A DNA stretch of 64,000 nucleotides from Apibacter sp. B3706 (lineage in GTDB: Bacteria; Bacteroidota; Bacteroidia; Flavobacteriales; Weeksellaceae), in assembly GCF_011082725.1 (NCBI RefSeq), contig NZ_CP049715.1, positions 496,001 through 560,000 of the forward strand, in the 5' to 3' direction. Below, in pieces: positions 18,557-25,068 of this stretch. A program made the position numbers and the translations under genes. The notes below the pieces were generated by a model that was not told the origin of the DNA, ran no database searches, and saw nothing but the letters and a program-made list of their open reading frames with translations. The stretch's first letter is position 1. Each line of letters starts with the position of its first letter.

Positions 18557-20824
18557 TTATAATTTAAAATCAAATCCCAAATAAAACATTGAAGATACAA
18601 TAGGAGCATAAATTAAAGAAGTATCGAAATAAGAACCAAAAGGGTTTTCCGGATTTATAATAGGATTTTTTTGTTTATAGCCTCCCAAATTTTCCACTCC
18701 TAGATAAGATCTAAACTTATCTGTAAAATATCTGGATAGTTGAGCATTCATTAAAGTATAATTAGGCGAAAACGATTTTCGCTGATATTCTATCGGATTT
18801 TTAGAGGTGTCCGGAAGTCTTTGTTTTCCTATATATTGCAATGTAAAGTCCAATGCCCATTTACTTTTGTTTTCAGTTTCTAGAGTAGAATATGATATAG
18901 AAAATAAGCCTCTGTTTTTAGAAGTAAAGGGAACTTGTCGCCTGCCATCCAAATAATCGGCTTTAATATCATACCATTTATAAGCAAAATGCAATTCCAG
19001 ATTGGAAATAGGAATAATATCCCATACTGCCTGAAAAGTATTTGAAAAAGATTTTCCATCTAAATTATAAAACCAAAGCGCTTGAGACGATCGATCCAAG
19101 TCTATAAGAACTTGTTTTTTAAAATCCGTTCGGTAAAAATCGATCGTAAACGTATTCTTGATAGCTCCAATTTTAAAATCCTGAATTATACTACCTCCAT
19201 AGTTCCATGCAATTTCATGTTTTAAACCATAAATATCGCCATGGTTTGATTGAATATGTACCTTACGAGACGAAGCAAAATACTGCATATTTTCAGAAAA
19301 TATATTGGCTGTTCTCATGCCTTTTCCCGCAGCTAATCGAAGGGTTGTTTTAGGCAAGAAAGAATATTTAATATTAATTCTTGGTAACACTTGGTTTCCC
19401 GCCAAATTGTGAAAATCAGTTCTGGCGCCCAATACTAAAGTTACATTTTTAATTGCAGTAGTAGTATATTCGGCAAAAATCCCGGGTACATTTTCAGTTC
19501 TTTTATAATTGGAATTTTCAAAATCCTCATTGAAAGCATCATGAAGATAACTTGCACCTAAGGTATATTTGTGATTCGTGTTACCAATGATACTCTCAAA
19601 TAATAAATTGGTAAAAAATGAATTTTCATTACCATTATATACCCTTTGACCGAAATAACTATCAATAGTATGATGAATAAATTTAGTTTGTAAACCTATG
19701 CTTTGATAAGGTTTAGTAAGAAAGACAAATCCGGTTTTATTCCAGATTTCAAAATGTGTATTTTCAATACCTAGTCCATAATGATTTTGAGTCAAACGGT
19801 CTGTTGATTCTCTGAATTTTTTTTGACCTCCGATTTGTTTATCATAAAGCGCCTGAATACCTATTTGAGAACCCCATCCGTTTTTTTTAATACCGTCATA
19901 ATGGATGATATCCATTACATTTAGTTGTTTGGAAAGAGGACTATCAAGATATCCGTCATGATTCATATCTTCTTTAGCAAACCTTCCGCTCAAATGAGTT
20001 AATGTGGTATTACTCCAATTATTGGAAATAGAAGATGCATTGACAACATTAAATTCCAAACGAGCATTTTGATTTGCAAAAAAATTGATAGTGGTAAAAT
20101 TTTTATCTTTATACTTCATCAATTCAGTATTTATTTGACCGGTTATAGCCTCGTAGCCATTAGTAACAGTGCTGCCTCCTTTGGTAAGTTGAATACTGTT
20201 TATCCATGTGCCGGGTATAAAATTTATTCCACTGGCGGTGGACAATCCTCTTACCTCCGGCATATTATCAACGGTTAAGGAAGTATATTTTTGATCTAAT
20301 CCTAACATTTTAATCTGTTTTGAACCCGTTACTGCATTGGTTGTAGAAATATCCACAGTAGGATTTGTTTCAAAACTTTCAGCCAAATTACAACAGGCGG
20401 CTTTCAACAATTCCGTTTTATTAATTGTATAGGTAAGAGCAGCAGAATTGGCTTTTATACTTACCGCCTTGGCTCTTTGTCGGACAACAACCTCATCCAA
20501 TACTTTCTCTGAAGAAGAAGGTTTGGGTTCTAAAAAAATATCTAGGGGATGATCAACATCATCAATTTTAATTTCTTGAGAAATAAAGCCGTCCTTTGCA
20601 GCTTCAATAGTATAGAGACCGTCGTGGTACATCAGCTCAAAATTGCCTAAGCTGTCAGTAACAGTTTTCATGATCGGGTGTTCTTTCCAATTTACATCAG
20701 CTCCCCGAACGGGTATATTTTCTCCATTTTCCAAAGTAGTTAGTATACGACCTTTTAATGTTTTATGCTGGGCTACAGCCAATAGACCGTAAACGAGCAA
20801 AAACATACTTATATATTTTTTCAT
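18557..20824 (-). CDS. TonB-dependent outer-membrane receptor, probably for a metal such as copper
   Basis: Outer-membrane receptor of 755 residues. It has a signal peptide (about 1-18, ending AVAQ), a carboxypeptidase-regulatory-like beta domain (about 22-98), a plug domain (about 110-240) and a beta barrel to the C-terminal LGFDFKL, which ends in an aromatic-rich strand. The plug begins with an unusual Cys-Cys pair in KAACCNLAESFETNPTVD (Cys144-Cys145). In Bacteroidota this CCNL-SFETNP-VD pattern is typical of receptors found next to Cys-rich or heavy-metal-associated proteins. The gene just upstream encodes a Cys-rich HYC_CC_PP-type protein, which supports a metal role. Substrate identity is inference; a siderophore or other ligand is not excluded. 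Confidence 0.85.
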   Translation of the reverse strand: MKKYISMFLLVYGLLAVAQHKTLKGRILTTLENGENIPVRGADVNWKEHPIMKTVTDSLGNFELMYHDGLYTIEAAKDGFISQEIKIDDVDHPLDIFLEPKPSSSEKVLDEVVVRQRAKAVSIKANSAALTYTINKTELLKAACCNLAESFETNPTVDISTTNAVTGSKQIKMLGLDQKYTSLTVDNMPEVRGLSTASGINFIPGTWINSIQLTKGGSTVTNGYEAITGQINTELMKYKDKNFTTINFFANQNARLEFNVVNASSISNNWSNTTLTHLSGRFAKEDMNHDGYLDSPLSKQLNVMDIIHYDGIKKNGWGSQIGIQALYDKQIGGQKKFRESTDRLTQNHYGLGIENTHFEIWNKTGFVFLTKPYQSIGLQTKFIHHTIDSYFGQRVYNGNENSFFTNLLFESIIGNTNHKYTLGASYLHDAFNEDFENSNYKRTENVPGIFAEYTTTAIKNVTLVLGARTDFHNLAGNQVLPRINIKYSFLPKTTLRLAAGKGMRTANIFSENMQYFASSRKVHIQSNHGDIYGLKHEIAWNYGGSIIQDFKIGAIKNTFTIDFYRTDFKKQVLIDLDRSSQALWFYNLDGKSFSNTFQAVWDIIPISNLELHFAYKWYDIKADYLDGRRQVPFTSKNRGLFSISYSTLETENKSKWALDFTLQYIGKQRLPDTSKNPIEYQRKSFSPNYTLMNAQLSRYFTDKFRSYLGVENLGGYKQKNPIINPENPFGSYFDTSLIYAPIVSSMFYLGFDFKL

Positions 20825-20950
20825 TTTTTGTTATTTAGTTATAAAAAATTGATTTTTAAACCGGCATTACTGAATGTTGATTATATACAATAATGCATCT
20901 TATCCTATCTTATATAAAATAGAATAAACTGAACCATGAAAAAATATACG

Positions 20951-21361
20951 TTATCCGTAGTAGGTATAACGACAATAAAATTTATATAATTGATAAACAG
21001 GGGGAGGAGGGTTACAATAAAGTTGTGCTATACCCTCTTGTTGAGAAGATGCCCAATTAAATAGATTCCAATTTACATTGGGAATAATTCCCAGAACTGT
21101 AAAAATTAAATGTTGAAAATTGGAATCAAATGAAAAAAAGCTATTTTCGTTCGATTTTATTAGGACGTCCTTACAGCAAAAATCTCTTTCAAAAGAAGGA
21201 TAATCCTTTTTCTCAGAATGTTTTAATTCGTTGGAAAATTTTTTGAAATTAATGGTATAGCCAATATTTTCTCCGTGACACCAATTTTGGTATATGAAGA
21301 GATTAAGATTTGCAAATAAAACCAAGCAAATCAAAAGTATAGACTGAATTAATTTCATCAA
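20951..21361 (-). CDS. Cys-rich exported protein of HYC_CC_PP type
   Basis: A 136-residue protein with one N-terminal hydrophobic segment (about residues 4-24) and spaced motifs: WCHGE at 27-31, FCCKD at 61-65 and CNPPPPVY at 116-123. This order (His/Cys, then Cys-Cys, then poly-Pro) is that of the Bacteroidota HYC_CC_PP family, although the first motif reads WCH rather than HYC. The rest of the protein has no recognisable enzyme motif. It sits 126 bases upstream of a TonB receptor that itself carries a Cys-Cys pair, so the two probably act together in binding or delivering a thiophilic metal. The partnership is inferred from context; the exact biochemical role of the family is not established. 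Confidence 0.7.
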   Translation of the reverse strand: MMKLIQSILLICLVLFANLNLFIYQNWCHGENIGYTINFKKFSNELKHSEKKDYPSFERDFCCKDVLIKSNENSFFSFDSNFQHLIFTVLGIIPNVNWNLFNWASSQQEGIAQLYCNPPPPVYQLYKFYCRYTYYG

Positions 21362-21428: not shown

Positions 21429-22937
21429 CTAATGCTTAAAATGACGTATTCCCGTAAATATCATAGGAATATTGTATTCATTACAAGCCTCAATGCTTTC
21501 TTTATCACGTATGGAACCTCCGGGCTGAATAATAGCAGTTATACCATTCTTTGCGGCGGTATCTACTACATCTCGAAAGGGAAAGAATGCATCAGAAGCC
21601 AAAACCAAATGATCGGTTCTTTTTTCTTTGGCACGTTCAATTGCTTCTTGAGCCGCCCATATTCTATTAGTTTGTCCCGAACCAATACCCAGGGCTTGGA
21701 AATCAGAAGCAACCACAATAGCATTGGATTTGGCATGTTTAACTATTTTTTGAGCAAAAATTAAATCTTCCAATTGTTTTTTGTCAGGAGCTGAATTTGT
21801 TACTTGAGTAAAATCAGTAGCTGCAGCATGATCCACGTCCTGAACTAATAAACCGCCGTCGACCTTAACGAATTCAATTGAATCCGATACAGGGTTGTTT
21901 ACTTTTATAACGCGCAAACTTTTTTTAGAAGATAATACTTGTAAAGCTTCACCCGTAAATGATGGAGCAATAACTATTTCTAAAAAAACGGTTACCAATA
22001 AACGAGCTGTTTCCTCATCAACAGTTCGATTAAAAGCGATGATCCCTCCAAAAATTGAAATTGGATCACATTCAAATGCTTTTTGATAAGCTTCAACTAT
22101 AGTATTTCCCAGAGCTACTCCACAGGGAGTAGAATGTTTTACCGCACAACAGGAAATTTCTGAAAATTCATTAACAACCTTATACGCCATATCCATATCT
22201 CGGAAATTATTAAATGAAAGTTCTTTGCCTTGTAATTGTTCAAAGTCCTTCATAGCTCCGTTTTTGGTTTTATCTATATAAAAGGCTGCTTTTTGATGCG
22301 GATTTTCTCCATACCTTAGATTTTCAACTTTTTCAAAAGAAGTGTTCAAATACTGTGGATAATCATCCTGCAAAAGATATCCGGATATGGCTGCATCATA
22401 AGAAGATGTCAGGTTAAACACTTTACCGGCCAATTTTTTTCGTGTAGTTAAAGAAGTATCTCCATCTTTTTTTAACTCTTCTATTACTAAACTATAATCT
22501 TCAATTTGAGATATAACCGTTACAGAGTGAAAATTTTTTGCAGCTGATCGTAGCATAGTAGGTCCACCTATATCAATAAATTCTATCATTTCCTGCTCTG
22601 ATAATCCTTTATTTAGTTTATCGAAAAACGGATATAAGTTCACAATAACCAGATCTATAGTTTTTATTTTAAGATCATGAATGGATTGTAAATGTTCTTC
22701 TTTTGTTCTGGAAGCCAGTATCCCTCCATGAATAGATGGATGTAACGTTTTAACTCTTCCATCCAATATTTCAGGAAAACCGGTATATTCACTAACTTCG
22801 GTGACATTAAGGCCGTTGGATATTAGATGCTTATAAGTTCCACCGGTTGAAATAATTTCATACCCTTGAGATTGTAAAAAAATTGAAAAATCAATTATAT
22901 TGGTTTTGTCTGAAACACTTATTAAAGCTCTTTTCAT
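21429..22937 (-). CDS. purH: Bifunctional AICAR transformylase / IMP cyclohydrolase
   Basis: Catalyses the last two steps of de novo IMP synthesis in the cytoplasm. The 502 residues contain the MGS-like cyclohydrolase domain at the N-terminus ([39 protein letters not shown] near 61-76) and the transformylase domain from about residue 190 ([27 protein letters not shown] with the catalytic Lys-His, [21 protein letters not shown] near the end). Length is normal. It follows the SRPBCC/GyrI-like gene by 16 bases and is likely co-transcribed with it, an association with no obvious metabolic reason. guaA, another purine gene, lies elsewhere in the window. Confidence 0.95.
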
Positions 22938-24152: not shown

Positions 24153-24557
24153 TTATTTATCAGTACTAGGATTGCTTTCAGGAGCTAAAACAACACCTTC
24201 TATTCTTACCGGTAAATTGGGTTTTTTCTCATCATTAGAAGATATGGTAATGGTTCTGCTGAATCTTCCTACATTAGAAGTATTGTAGGTTACCGTAATT
24301 TCTCCTTTTTTTCCCGGAGCGATAGGTTCTGTAGTCCATTGAGGTACAGTACATCCGCAAGAAGTGTTTATATTGGAAATAATTAACGGTTTATCTCCCA
24401 CATTTTGAATTTTTATAATTCTTTTACCATTAGATCCTTTGTTTACATTCCCATAATCCACCGTATTATTTTCATAATTGGTAATTTTAATTTCCTGAGC
24501 ATTGCTGAAAATGTATGCTCCCAATAGGAATGCCGAACTTAAAACGAACTTTTTCAT
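24153..24557 (-). CDS. Exported DUF1573 protein (second of a tandem pair)
   Basis: A 134-residue secreted protein with a signal peptide (about 1-20, ending SNAQ) and one immunoglobulin-like DUF1573 domain. The family core is clear: DYGNVNKGSNGKRIIKIQN, then PLIISNINTSCGCTVPQW near 57-74, then TVTYNTSNVGRFSRTITI. The CGC pair is typical of the family. A short hydrophilic tail (LAPESNPSTDK) follows. Its upstream neighbour is a clear paralogue 29 bases away. DUF1573 proteins are abundant in Bacteroidota and probably sit in the periplasm or envelope, but their function is unknown. Confidence 0.88.
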   Translation of the reverse strand: MKKFVLSSAFLLGAYIFSNAQEIKITNYENNTVDYGNVNKGSNGKRIIKIQNVGDKPLIISNINTSCGCTVPQWTTEPIAPGKKGEITVTYNTSNVGRFSRTITISSNDEKKPNLPVRIEGVVLAPESNPSTDK

Positions 24558-24586
24558 GTTTGATATATATTTAACTATTTTTTTAA

Positions 24587-24949
24587 CTATTGAACTTCCC
24601 CTTTAATTTTTAAAAGTTTTCTTGAAATTTTAGGATCATTACTGAATACCTCAATTGATTTGGAAAATTTACCAAGATTCTTTGTATTATACTTAACGTT
24701 TATCTCACCTGATTTACCCGGTAAAATAGGAGTTCTGGTCCATGAAGGTACAGAACAATCACATGATGATTTAACGTTGGAAATAATCAAAGGTTTGTCA
24801 CCTGTATTGGTAAATTTGAAAATTTGATTACCGTCAGAATTTTTTTTAATTATTCCATAATCTATTTGATCTTGACTGAATGTTATAGATTGAGCGGAAA
24901 TGAAACTTCCTAAAAATAGGAGAAAAACTAATATAGCAGTTTTTTTCAT
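24587..24949 (-). CDS. Exported DUF1573 protein (first of a tandem pair)
   Basis: The frame extends to an ATG at 24979, but the ATG at 24949 gives a standard signal peptide, MKKTAILVFLLFLGSFISAQ, and a 120-residue protein; the extra ten residues would spoil it. One DUF1573 domain follows, with DYGIIKKNSDGNQIFKF, IISNVKSSCDCSVPSW and KYNTKNLGKFSKSIEV. It is closely similar to the next gene, so the pair arose by tandem duplication, with CDC here replacing CGC. A -7-like box, TATCTTTA at 24955-24962 on the minus strand, is only 5 bases from the chosen ATG, which would give an almost leaderless mRNA. Confidence 0.82.
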   Translation of the reverse strand: MKKTAILVFLLFLGSFISAQSITFSQDQIDYGIIKKNSDGNQIFKFTNTGDKPLIISNVKSSCDCSVPSWTRTPILPGKSGEINVKYNTKNLGKFSKSIEVFSNDPKISRKLLKIKGEVQ

Positions 24950-25068
24950 ACTTGTAAAGATATAAAATTTTAAATTCACTTTAGCTTAATTTTATTTTCA
25001 AAAATAATACCATCTAATAATATAATTGGTAATAAAAATGAATTTTTTGAAATCATAAACAGAAGGTC

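Follow-up and report, generated by a model that had tools for sequence, protein, structure and literature searches.

The window analysed here is the whole 64,000-nucleotide (nt) stretch of Apibacter sp. B3706 (contig NZ_CP049715.1, positions 496,001 to 560,000). On its reverse strand, a small gene of the HYC_CC_PP family (hereafter HYC) precedes the gene of a TonB-dependent receptor, which carries an adjacent cysteine pair (CC) in its plug. The two open reading frames (ORFs), the spacer between them and the RNA elements predicted from the minimum free energy (MFE) structure are given below in window coordinates.

18557..20824, reverse strand: CC-type TonB-dependent receptor, proposed to act in copper uptake (ORF; Plug PF07715; CC-receptor plug profile A1, E=3.2e-63)
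20951..21361, reverse strand: HYC_CC_PP small protein, predicted to be exported and proposed to be a copper-sensing leader, i.e. an upstream ORF (uORF) (ORF; NF047658, 46.3 bits)
20825..20950, reverse strand: spacer of 126 nt, strongly structured RNA (fold z=-5.13 for 20813-20981)
20936..20947, reverse strand: 5' strand of the predicted closing helix P1, 4-15 nt past the leader stop, AUAUUUUUUCAU (MFE structure)
20813..20824, reverse strand: 3' strand of P1, made up of the first four receptor codons from the AUG on, AUGAAAAAAUAU (MFE structure)
20899..20928, reverse strand: predicted internal hairpin 1 of the spacer (MFE structure)
20864..20896, reverse strand: predicted internal hairpin 2 of the spacer (MFE structure)
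20837..20862, reverse strand: predicted internal hairpin 3 of the spacer (MFE structure)
20949..20971, reverse strand: predicted hairpin over the leader's last codons and stop (MFE structure)

The receptor ORF encodes 755 amino acids (aa) from an ATG at 20824 and carries the Plug domain PF07715 (Pfam search, E=6.7e-08); the stretch LLKAACCNLAESFETNP contains Cys144-Cys145, at the start of the plug. The HYC ORF encodes 136 aa counted from a TTG at 21361, with an ATG one codon later at 21358, and ends with a UAA stop codon (20953-20951), leaving an intergenic gap of 126 nt. The protein has an N-terminal hydrophobic helix, which suggests that it is exported, followed by WCH at residues 27-29, CC at 62-63 and CNPPPP at 116-121; the gene pair and the cysteine and proline motifs described in the initial annotation are thus real. 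Its score of 46.3 bits against NF047658 (HYC_CC_PP) exceeds the curated cut-off of 28. The CC and PP motifs of this family are present, and the HYC motif takes the form NWCH with its Cys aligned. It is the sole NF047658 match in its own 2.30-Mb genome, and a Pfam search of the protein gave no match.

Among 296 Bacteroidota genomes, NF047658 was found at E<=0.001 in 91 genomes (123 places), with 84 genomes over the cut-off, and the plug profile A1 picked 77 CC receptors, one per genome, at E<=5.7e-41 (all other matches at E>=1.8e-19). The two families co-occur, as the initial annotation expected: both are present in 54 genomes, HYC only in 37, the receptor only in 23 and neither in 182 (p=2.9e-17, uncorrected for kinship). 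An NF047658 place lies upstream of 45/77 CC receptors (within 5 kb, same strand), compared with 0/39 control TonB receptors of other types, a control that was counted on strict places only. An iterated profile raised upstream HYC to 68/77, a number that may include drift and also weak matches to leaders ending in WQPP (E 5e-7 to 3e-4), so that the strict count is 45/77. The nine CC receptors left without detected HYC include three loci (L153, L166 and L167) with leaders ending in WQPP plus three residues, three (L136, L161 and L165) with a small Cys-rich ORF immediately upstream and one (L164) with such an ORF 483 nt upstream and another ORF between; none was seen at L137, and the upstream region of L152 is outside the view. 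A second set of 80 genomes, found by receptor motifs, gave an upstream leader-profile match in 65/80 loci and a WQPP leader in 7 more; among the rest, 2 loci end too soon upstream and 6 are without a visible leader.

For the genes that HYC precedes, 102 of the 123 places were analysed, omitting 6 near-identical places of the same genus and the 15 weakest. On the same strand and within 3.5 kb downstream of HYC, an RND pump gene was found at 45 places, a CC receptor at 35 and neither at 22. HYC as a dedicated partner of the receptor was therefore rejected, because RND pump genes were preceded at least as often. The hand-over role assigned to it by the initial annotation is weakened further by a CC-PP linker of nearly fixed length without sequence conservation, and by the different leader that stands at this place in other genera (both described below). 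Metal hand-over between two neighbouring envelope proteins with Cys pairs, which is the natural reading of the locus, is probably wrong.

Within 5 kb on either side of HYC, RND pump genes were present at 49 places, CC receptors at 35 and the neighbour clusters c22/c26 at 8; 10 places had none of these, and P-type ATPase or HMA-AraC-like neighbours were noticed by eye at some of them. Representatives of the neighbour clusters match ACR_tran, a CusB-type adaptor with heavy-metal-binding domain (HMBD) and OEP; c22 matches HMA, and the common small neighbour c4 matches HMA below the cut-off only (E=0.0024). This copper-transport gene context speaks for the metal that the initial annotation had suggested. 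Copper is, with good support, the likely metal of the HYC/receptor system; another soft metal, for instance silver, is also possible. The genome of the window encodes a haem-copper oxidase and an 817-aa ORF bearing HMA, which makes a need for copper plausible. A third HYC context was observed at L080, L083, L096, L100 and L110, consisting of HYC, the HMA-domain protein c22, whose representative carries GGITCSMC, and a protein of about 270 aa (c26), which is without NCBIfam match and outer-membrane-like by eye. At L046, two HYC genes stand head to head, one of them before an RND pump gene and the other before a regulator of HMA-AraC type (by eye).

HYC tends to head its operon. Its upstream neighbour is on the opposite strand or more than 100 nt off in 73/102 cases, compared with 341/826 for other genes of the same loci (p=6e-9), and the gene after HYC is on the same strand in 101/102, with a median gap of 85 nt. 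Alignment of HYC proteins shows no variation in the first Cys or in CC, and hardly any in PP. The spacing from CC to PP has a standard deviation (SD) of 1.8 residues and an interquartile range (IQR) of 55-58, with 87/91 proteins within 53-59 (n=91); the spacing from the HYC motif to CC has an SD of 9.4 and an IQR of 32-40 (n=99). Across 28 proteins with a CC-PP spacing of exactly 55 residues, identity is 13% in the linker and 29% in the last 14 residues. Such a length corresponds approximately to the ribosome tunnel plus the SecYEG channel. UGA is the stop codon of 56/102 HYC genes vs 163/1032 other genes of the same loci (p=2e-17), and Ile is the final residue in 74/102. The AlphaFold2 model of HYC consists of an N-terminal helix and a beta hairpin block (pLDDT 77-89) with no confident fold past them; it is weak beyond residue 40 (mean pLDDT 66, pTM 0.38), which may be explained by a shallow alignment of 39 sequences.

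The window RNA from 20813 to 20981 (169 nt) is strongly structured (z=-5.13), none of 200 shuffles being equally stable. Spacers after HYC have a mean z of -2.69 (58/94 below -2), compared with -1.02 for other same-strand spacers (68/260); the control spacers were the first 260 met for fold z, the first 130 met for P1 pairs and a random 90 for the swap test. A closing helix, P1, recurs among these spacers, in which the leader stop codon and the next ~10 nt pair with a stretch just before the next start. P1 amounts to 12.7 expected pairs in the native spacers of 78 loci, compared with 6.0 when these are shuffled and 5.8 for 130 control gaps. Positions -2 to +10 of the stop pair with the pre-start stretch at 0.43-0.57, whereas shuffled spacers give 0.16-0.24 and controls 0.14-0.20. 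At 40/78 HYC loci the stop codon is paired, vs 24/163 other same-strand pairs of the same loci. Since the paired stop codons comprise all three types (23 UGA, 10 UAG and 7 UAA), the partner strands of P1 must have changed alongside. In an alignment-free swap test, the own spacer was among the best 5% of partners for 36/85 leader ends, compared with 5/90 controls, indicating partner-specific covariation of P1; by next gene, the counts were 16/25 for CusA-sized, 9/18 for receptor-sized and 7/35 for small genes. When the test was slid along the first set, it peaked at -4 to +4 (27, 30 and 23 of 79; 4-14 elsewhere), and in the second, 80-genome set it peaked at -8 to -4 (24/63; 5 at -30 and -20). 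An Rfam-type search gave five sub-threshold matches for the window and only two tRNAs and an S15 leader for 8 related loci, so that the candidate assignment of P1 and the spacer to a known RNA family was dropped, no Rfam family being matched by these sequences.

In other Weeksellaceae, a different Cys-rich leader precedes the CC receptor (18 loci), which has an N-terminal hydrophobic stretch and ends in IWQPPK[IL][GDSV] or VWNPPKF (IWQPPKxG type). PP stands 3 residues before the stop in 17/18 of these leaders, and 43-45 residues intervene between CxxC and PP in all 16 that have CxxC. P1 is found here too, with a stop-codon pairing probability of 0.97 for the 16 loci with suitable spacers and 0.99 for 8 cluster representatives. 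The Weeksellaceae loci L170-L187 carry this leader where the genome of the window has a Flavobacterium-like HYC, a difference that suggests that the leader was exchanged, or diverged strongly, inside a single family. One member of the IWQPPKxG type reaches NF047658 at E=0.008, and the iterated profile also catches several. Profile-profile comparison among HYC, the IWQPPKxG leader and DUF2946, the family of the metal-sensing leaders CruR and CutF, gave probabilities of 9-15% (P 0.002-0.004, 14-32 columns), and that of HYC with five DUF2946-like proteins gave 9% (P=0.004, 32 columns). HYC as a member of DUF2946 was rejected, as this similarity is weak and PF11162 (DUF2946) was absent among the 25 of 29 families listed for 62 HYC members at E<=1. 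DUF2946 itself is over the cut-off in 5/296 genomes, and no listed DUF2946 place is a HYC place. Two DUF2946 leaders (L252 and L254), ending in RAPP and RGPP plus six residues, stand directly before TonB receptors, which have a plug domain (E=2.5e-19 and 1.1e-12) and are not among the CC-type matches.

The pump context, the linker of nearly fixed length and the replacement of the leader fit a copper sensor or leader acting in cis better than a chaperone. By analogy with CruR and CutF, the HYC_CC_PP gene is probably, at a modest level of confidence, a cis-acting and copper-responsive exported leader (regulatory uORF) for the next gene, with a stop-codon RNA clasp. The ribosome would translate HYC during export through SecYEG; when PP is at the peptidyl-transferase centre, CC, about 55 residues back, would just reach the periplasmic side. 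Binding of Cu(I), the presumed ligand, by CC and the other Cys would alter the pull on the nascent chain, which would change the time that the ribosome spends, or is arrested, on the last codons from PP to the stop. By toeprint geometry, a ribosome that occupies a stop codon shields some 11 nt beyond it, and the 5' strand of P1 has nearly this length. If the ribosome lingered at the end of HYC, it would cover this strand, keep P1 open and expose the next start region, and its dwell time would set the output of the next gene. As for the sign of the response, uptake would be expected off and efflux on at high copper, and the two kinds of operon may respond with opposite sign.

A wider proposal is offered more tentatively and, in our judgement, falls somewhat short of an even chance: a copper switch common to the phylum Bacteroidota, in which the nascent HYC_CC_PP or IWQPPKxG leader would sense periplasmic copper on leaving SecYEG, and a ribosome paused at the leader stop would melt P1 and set the translation of the next gene. 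One device would then serve both uptake receptors and efflux pumps, and dissimilar leader families would share a ruler of Cys, spacer, PP and stop.

Several observations weigh against these proposals. In the second set, the swap test also exceeds away from the stop (12/63 at -40 and 15-18 at +8 to +14), and the IWQPPKxG-type leader may be a diverged HYC; our confidence in both is slightly lower for these two reasons. P1 is not universal, since the stop codon is unpaired at 38/78 loci and several loci are almost without P1 pairs. Nor does P1 hide the next start codon itself across the family: pairing of the start region is 0.54 with native and 0.53 with shuffled spacers, and a role as family-wide start-codon blocker was rejected. 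The stall-position model predicts that P1 shifts with the position of PP, and sliding windows had hinted at such a shift; the hint failed, as P1 is not further upstream in leaders with PP beside the stop (p=0.31, 0.90). Most HYC, including that of the window, have PP ~13-18 codons ahead of the stop, compared with PP at the stop in CruR, and 11/102 HYC lack PP there.

Three further such observations concern the window itself. Its P1 is A-U rich and outside the best 5% of partners (rank 0.29-0.90 by offset), in swap tests that reach ~5 nt into the next gene, the window helix extending 12 nt into the receptor gene. It amounts to 9.9 expected pairs, above the shuffled mean of 2.5 and below the best of 8 shuffles (13.6); taken alone, the window's own helix is weak evidence. 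The gene purH (AICARFT/IMPCHase, PF01808), at 21429-22937 on the same strand, ends ~70 nt before HYC, so that the window HYC is not clearly first in its transcript.

Alternatively, HYC might be a stable periplasmic copper chaperone or sensor that acts in trans and passes Cu(I) to the receptor, the HMA protein or the pump, the helix merely coupling translation. The conserved Cys and the hydrophobic helix at the N terminus would suit such a role, as would the modelled helix and hairpin and the location of most HYC near metal-transport genes. However, one family precedes both uptake-like and efflux genes, the CC-PP linker is near-constant in length yet 13% identical, and HYC's place is taken elsewhere by a very different leader whose Cys, PP and stop are similarly arranged. 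The model also counts against a stable protein, being weak past residue 40, for which the shallow alignment is possibly responsible. On balance, we regard a chaperone as rather unlikely.

Two further explanations appear more doubtful still, and to a similar degree. In simple translational coupling, P1 would set the HYC stop beside the next start and ribosomes would reinitiate, the nascent chain sensing no copper; a P1 that is centred near the stop codon and links it with the sequence immediately ahead of the next start agrees with this, but the near-fixed CC-PP spacing, the UGA excess and the PP motifs are left unexplained, and just 24/163 of the other same-strand pairs have a stop codon paired in this way. 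In transcription attenuation, leader translation would govern Rho-dependent or hairpin termination in the spacer, as in CruR, which acts through Rho (PMC9426467). The spacers are indeed strongly structured, but the second strand of P1 lies at the initiation region of the next gene, and several spacers have no obvious U-run terminator by eye, no terminator scan having been made.

Metal-sensing leaders such as CruR and CutF are already known, and HYC shares their N-terminal hydrophobic helix, Cys motif, C-terminal PP, conserved spacing and position before copper-transport genes. In Bordetella pertussis, CruR (DUF2946) is described as leading the gene of a TonB copper receptor, bfrG/crtA, and as acting through Rho termination; its CXXC is 45 residues away from a RAPP that stands three residues from the end, and its spacer has 162 nt (PMC9426467); its arrest was demonstrated in vitro (PMC12992588). 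Like CruR, HYC is a small Cys protein, predicted to be exported, that comes as first gene before a TonB copper receptor, with PP near the C terminus, a conserved Cys-to-PP spacing and a long spacer. It differs from CruR in having no PF11162 match, CC instead of CXXC, PP ~13-18 codons before the stop and a P1 helix at the stop codon, where CruR is described with Rho termination. The IWQPPKxG leader resembles CruR in its PP 3 residues before the stop and in a similar CxxC-PP distance (43-45 vs 45).

CutF (DUF2946) stands upstream of cutO in Rhodobacter capsulatus, where a stem-loop shields the Shine-Dalgarno site, and the CutF-like CzcI precedes an RND pump and is described there as lacking the proline motif (PMC9973294). 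Sec-dependent export, a Cys motif, a proline-rich C terminus and RNA structure between the leader and the next gene are common to CutF and HYC, as far as HYC is exported, and CzcI shares with HYC its location before an RND pump. In contrast, CutF belongs to another sequence family, and HYC P1 starts at the leader stop, whereas the CutF stem-loop covers the Shine-Dalgarno site. Bacteroidota leaders ending in NAP-stop or NSP-stop have been reported upstream of Sec genes (PMC10987492); they share with HYC the phylum, the exported leader and a conserved motif at the very end, but are tied to protein export rather than metal and have other sequences and other downstream genes.

Among the papers searched, none mentions HYC_CC_PP or NF047658, and no Bacteroidota copper leader was among the literature matches listed. 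New within the scope of these searches are the interpretation of HYC_CC_PP as a leader, its occurrence upstream of receptor as well as pump genes, the second type of leader and the RNA clasp at the stop codon. If the leader proposal is true, a family so far named by motifs alone would acquire a function, one device could set copper uptake and efflux genes in Bacteroidota, and metal-sensing nascent chains would extend beyond DUF2946. The leader, the stop-codon helix and the next start would then form a compact RNA-protein element that is testable with a single reporter.

The window receptor lies well inside the CC-type family. In the plug profile A1, CC is constant by construction, since the profile was built from receptors selected for CC, and the same holds for the 80 loci of the second set, whose receptor motifs included CC. 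Nevertheless, CC is at the plug position in 34/34 receptors that were clustered by BLAST beside HYC genes and selected without CC, which is more than chance; two of them (rows 61 and 89) show an additional, earlier CC beside the plug CC. An HMA domain is fused N-terminally to CC receptors at L171 (Chryseobacterium; PF00403, E=1.3e-8) and L142 (E=1.9e-9) in the Pfam search. HMA-fused CC receptors have ~845-920 aa, and L140, L141, L145, L148 and L153 likewise carry the fusion by regular expression only.

OprC, which has the motif CxxxM-HxM and an OprC-like relative in a flavobacterium (PMC11213822), and CrtA, which is described as having no conserved Cys or Met (PMC12914433), resemble the CC receptor as TonB-dependent receptors tied to copper. 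The OprC motif (CxxxM in the plug, HxM in the barrel) was not seen around Cys144-Cys145 of the window, where residues 144-149 read CCNLAE, and CxxxM is absent among the invariant columns of the receptor alignment A4. Both OprC and CrtA were absent from the 8 solved sequences matched by the receptor profile at E<=1e-5. The best 50 of 759 Foldseek matches of the receptor are siderophore, B12 and other TonB receptors, OprC being absent among these 50. The plug of the window receptor was poorly modelled (pLDDT <50), and a structural placement of Cys144-Cys145 was dropped for this reason.

Finally, genes related to purH (cluster c32) were found near HYC in four other loci, on the opposite strand, and the window encodes two DUF1573 proteins (PF07610) in tandem at 24153-24979.

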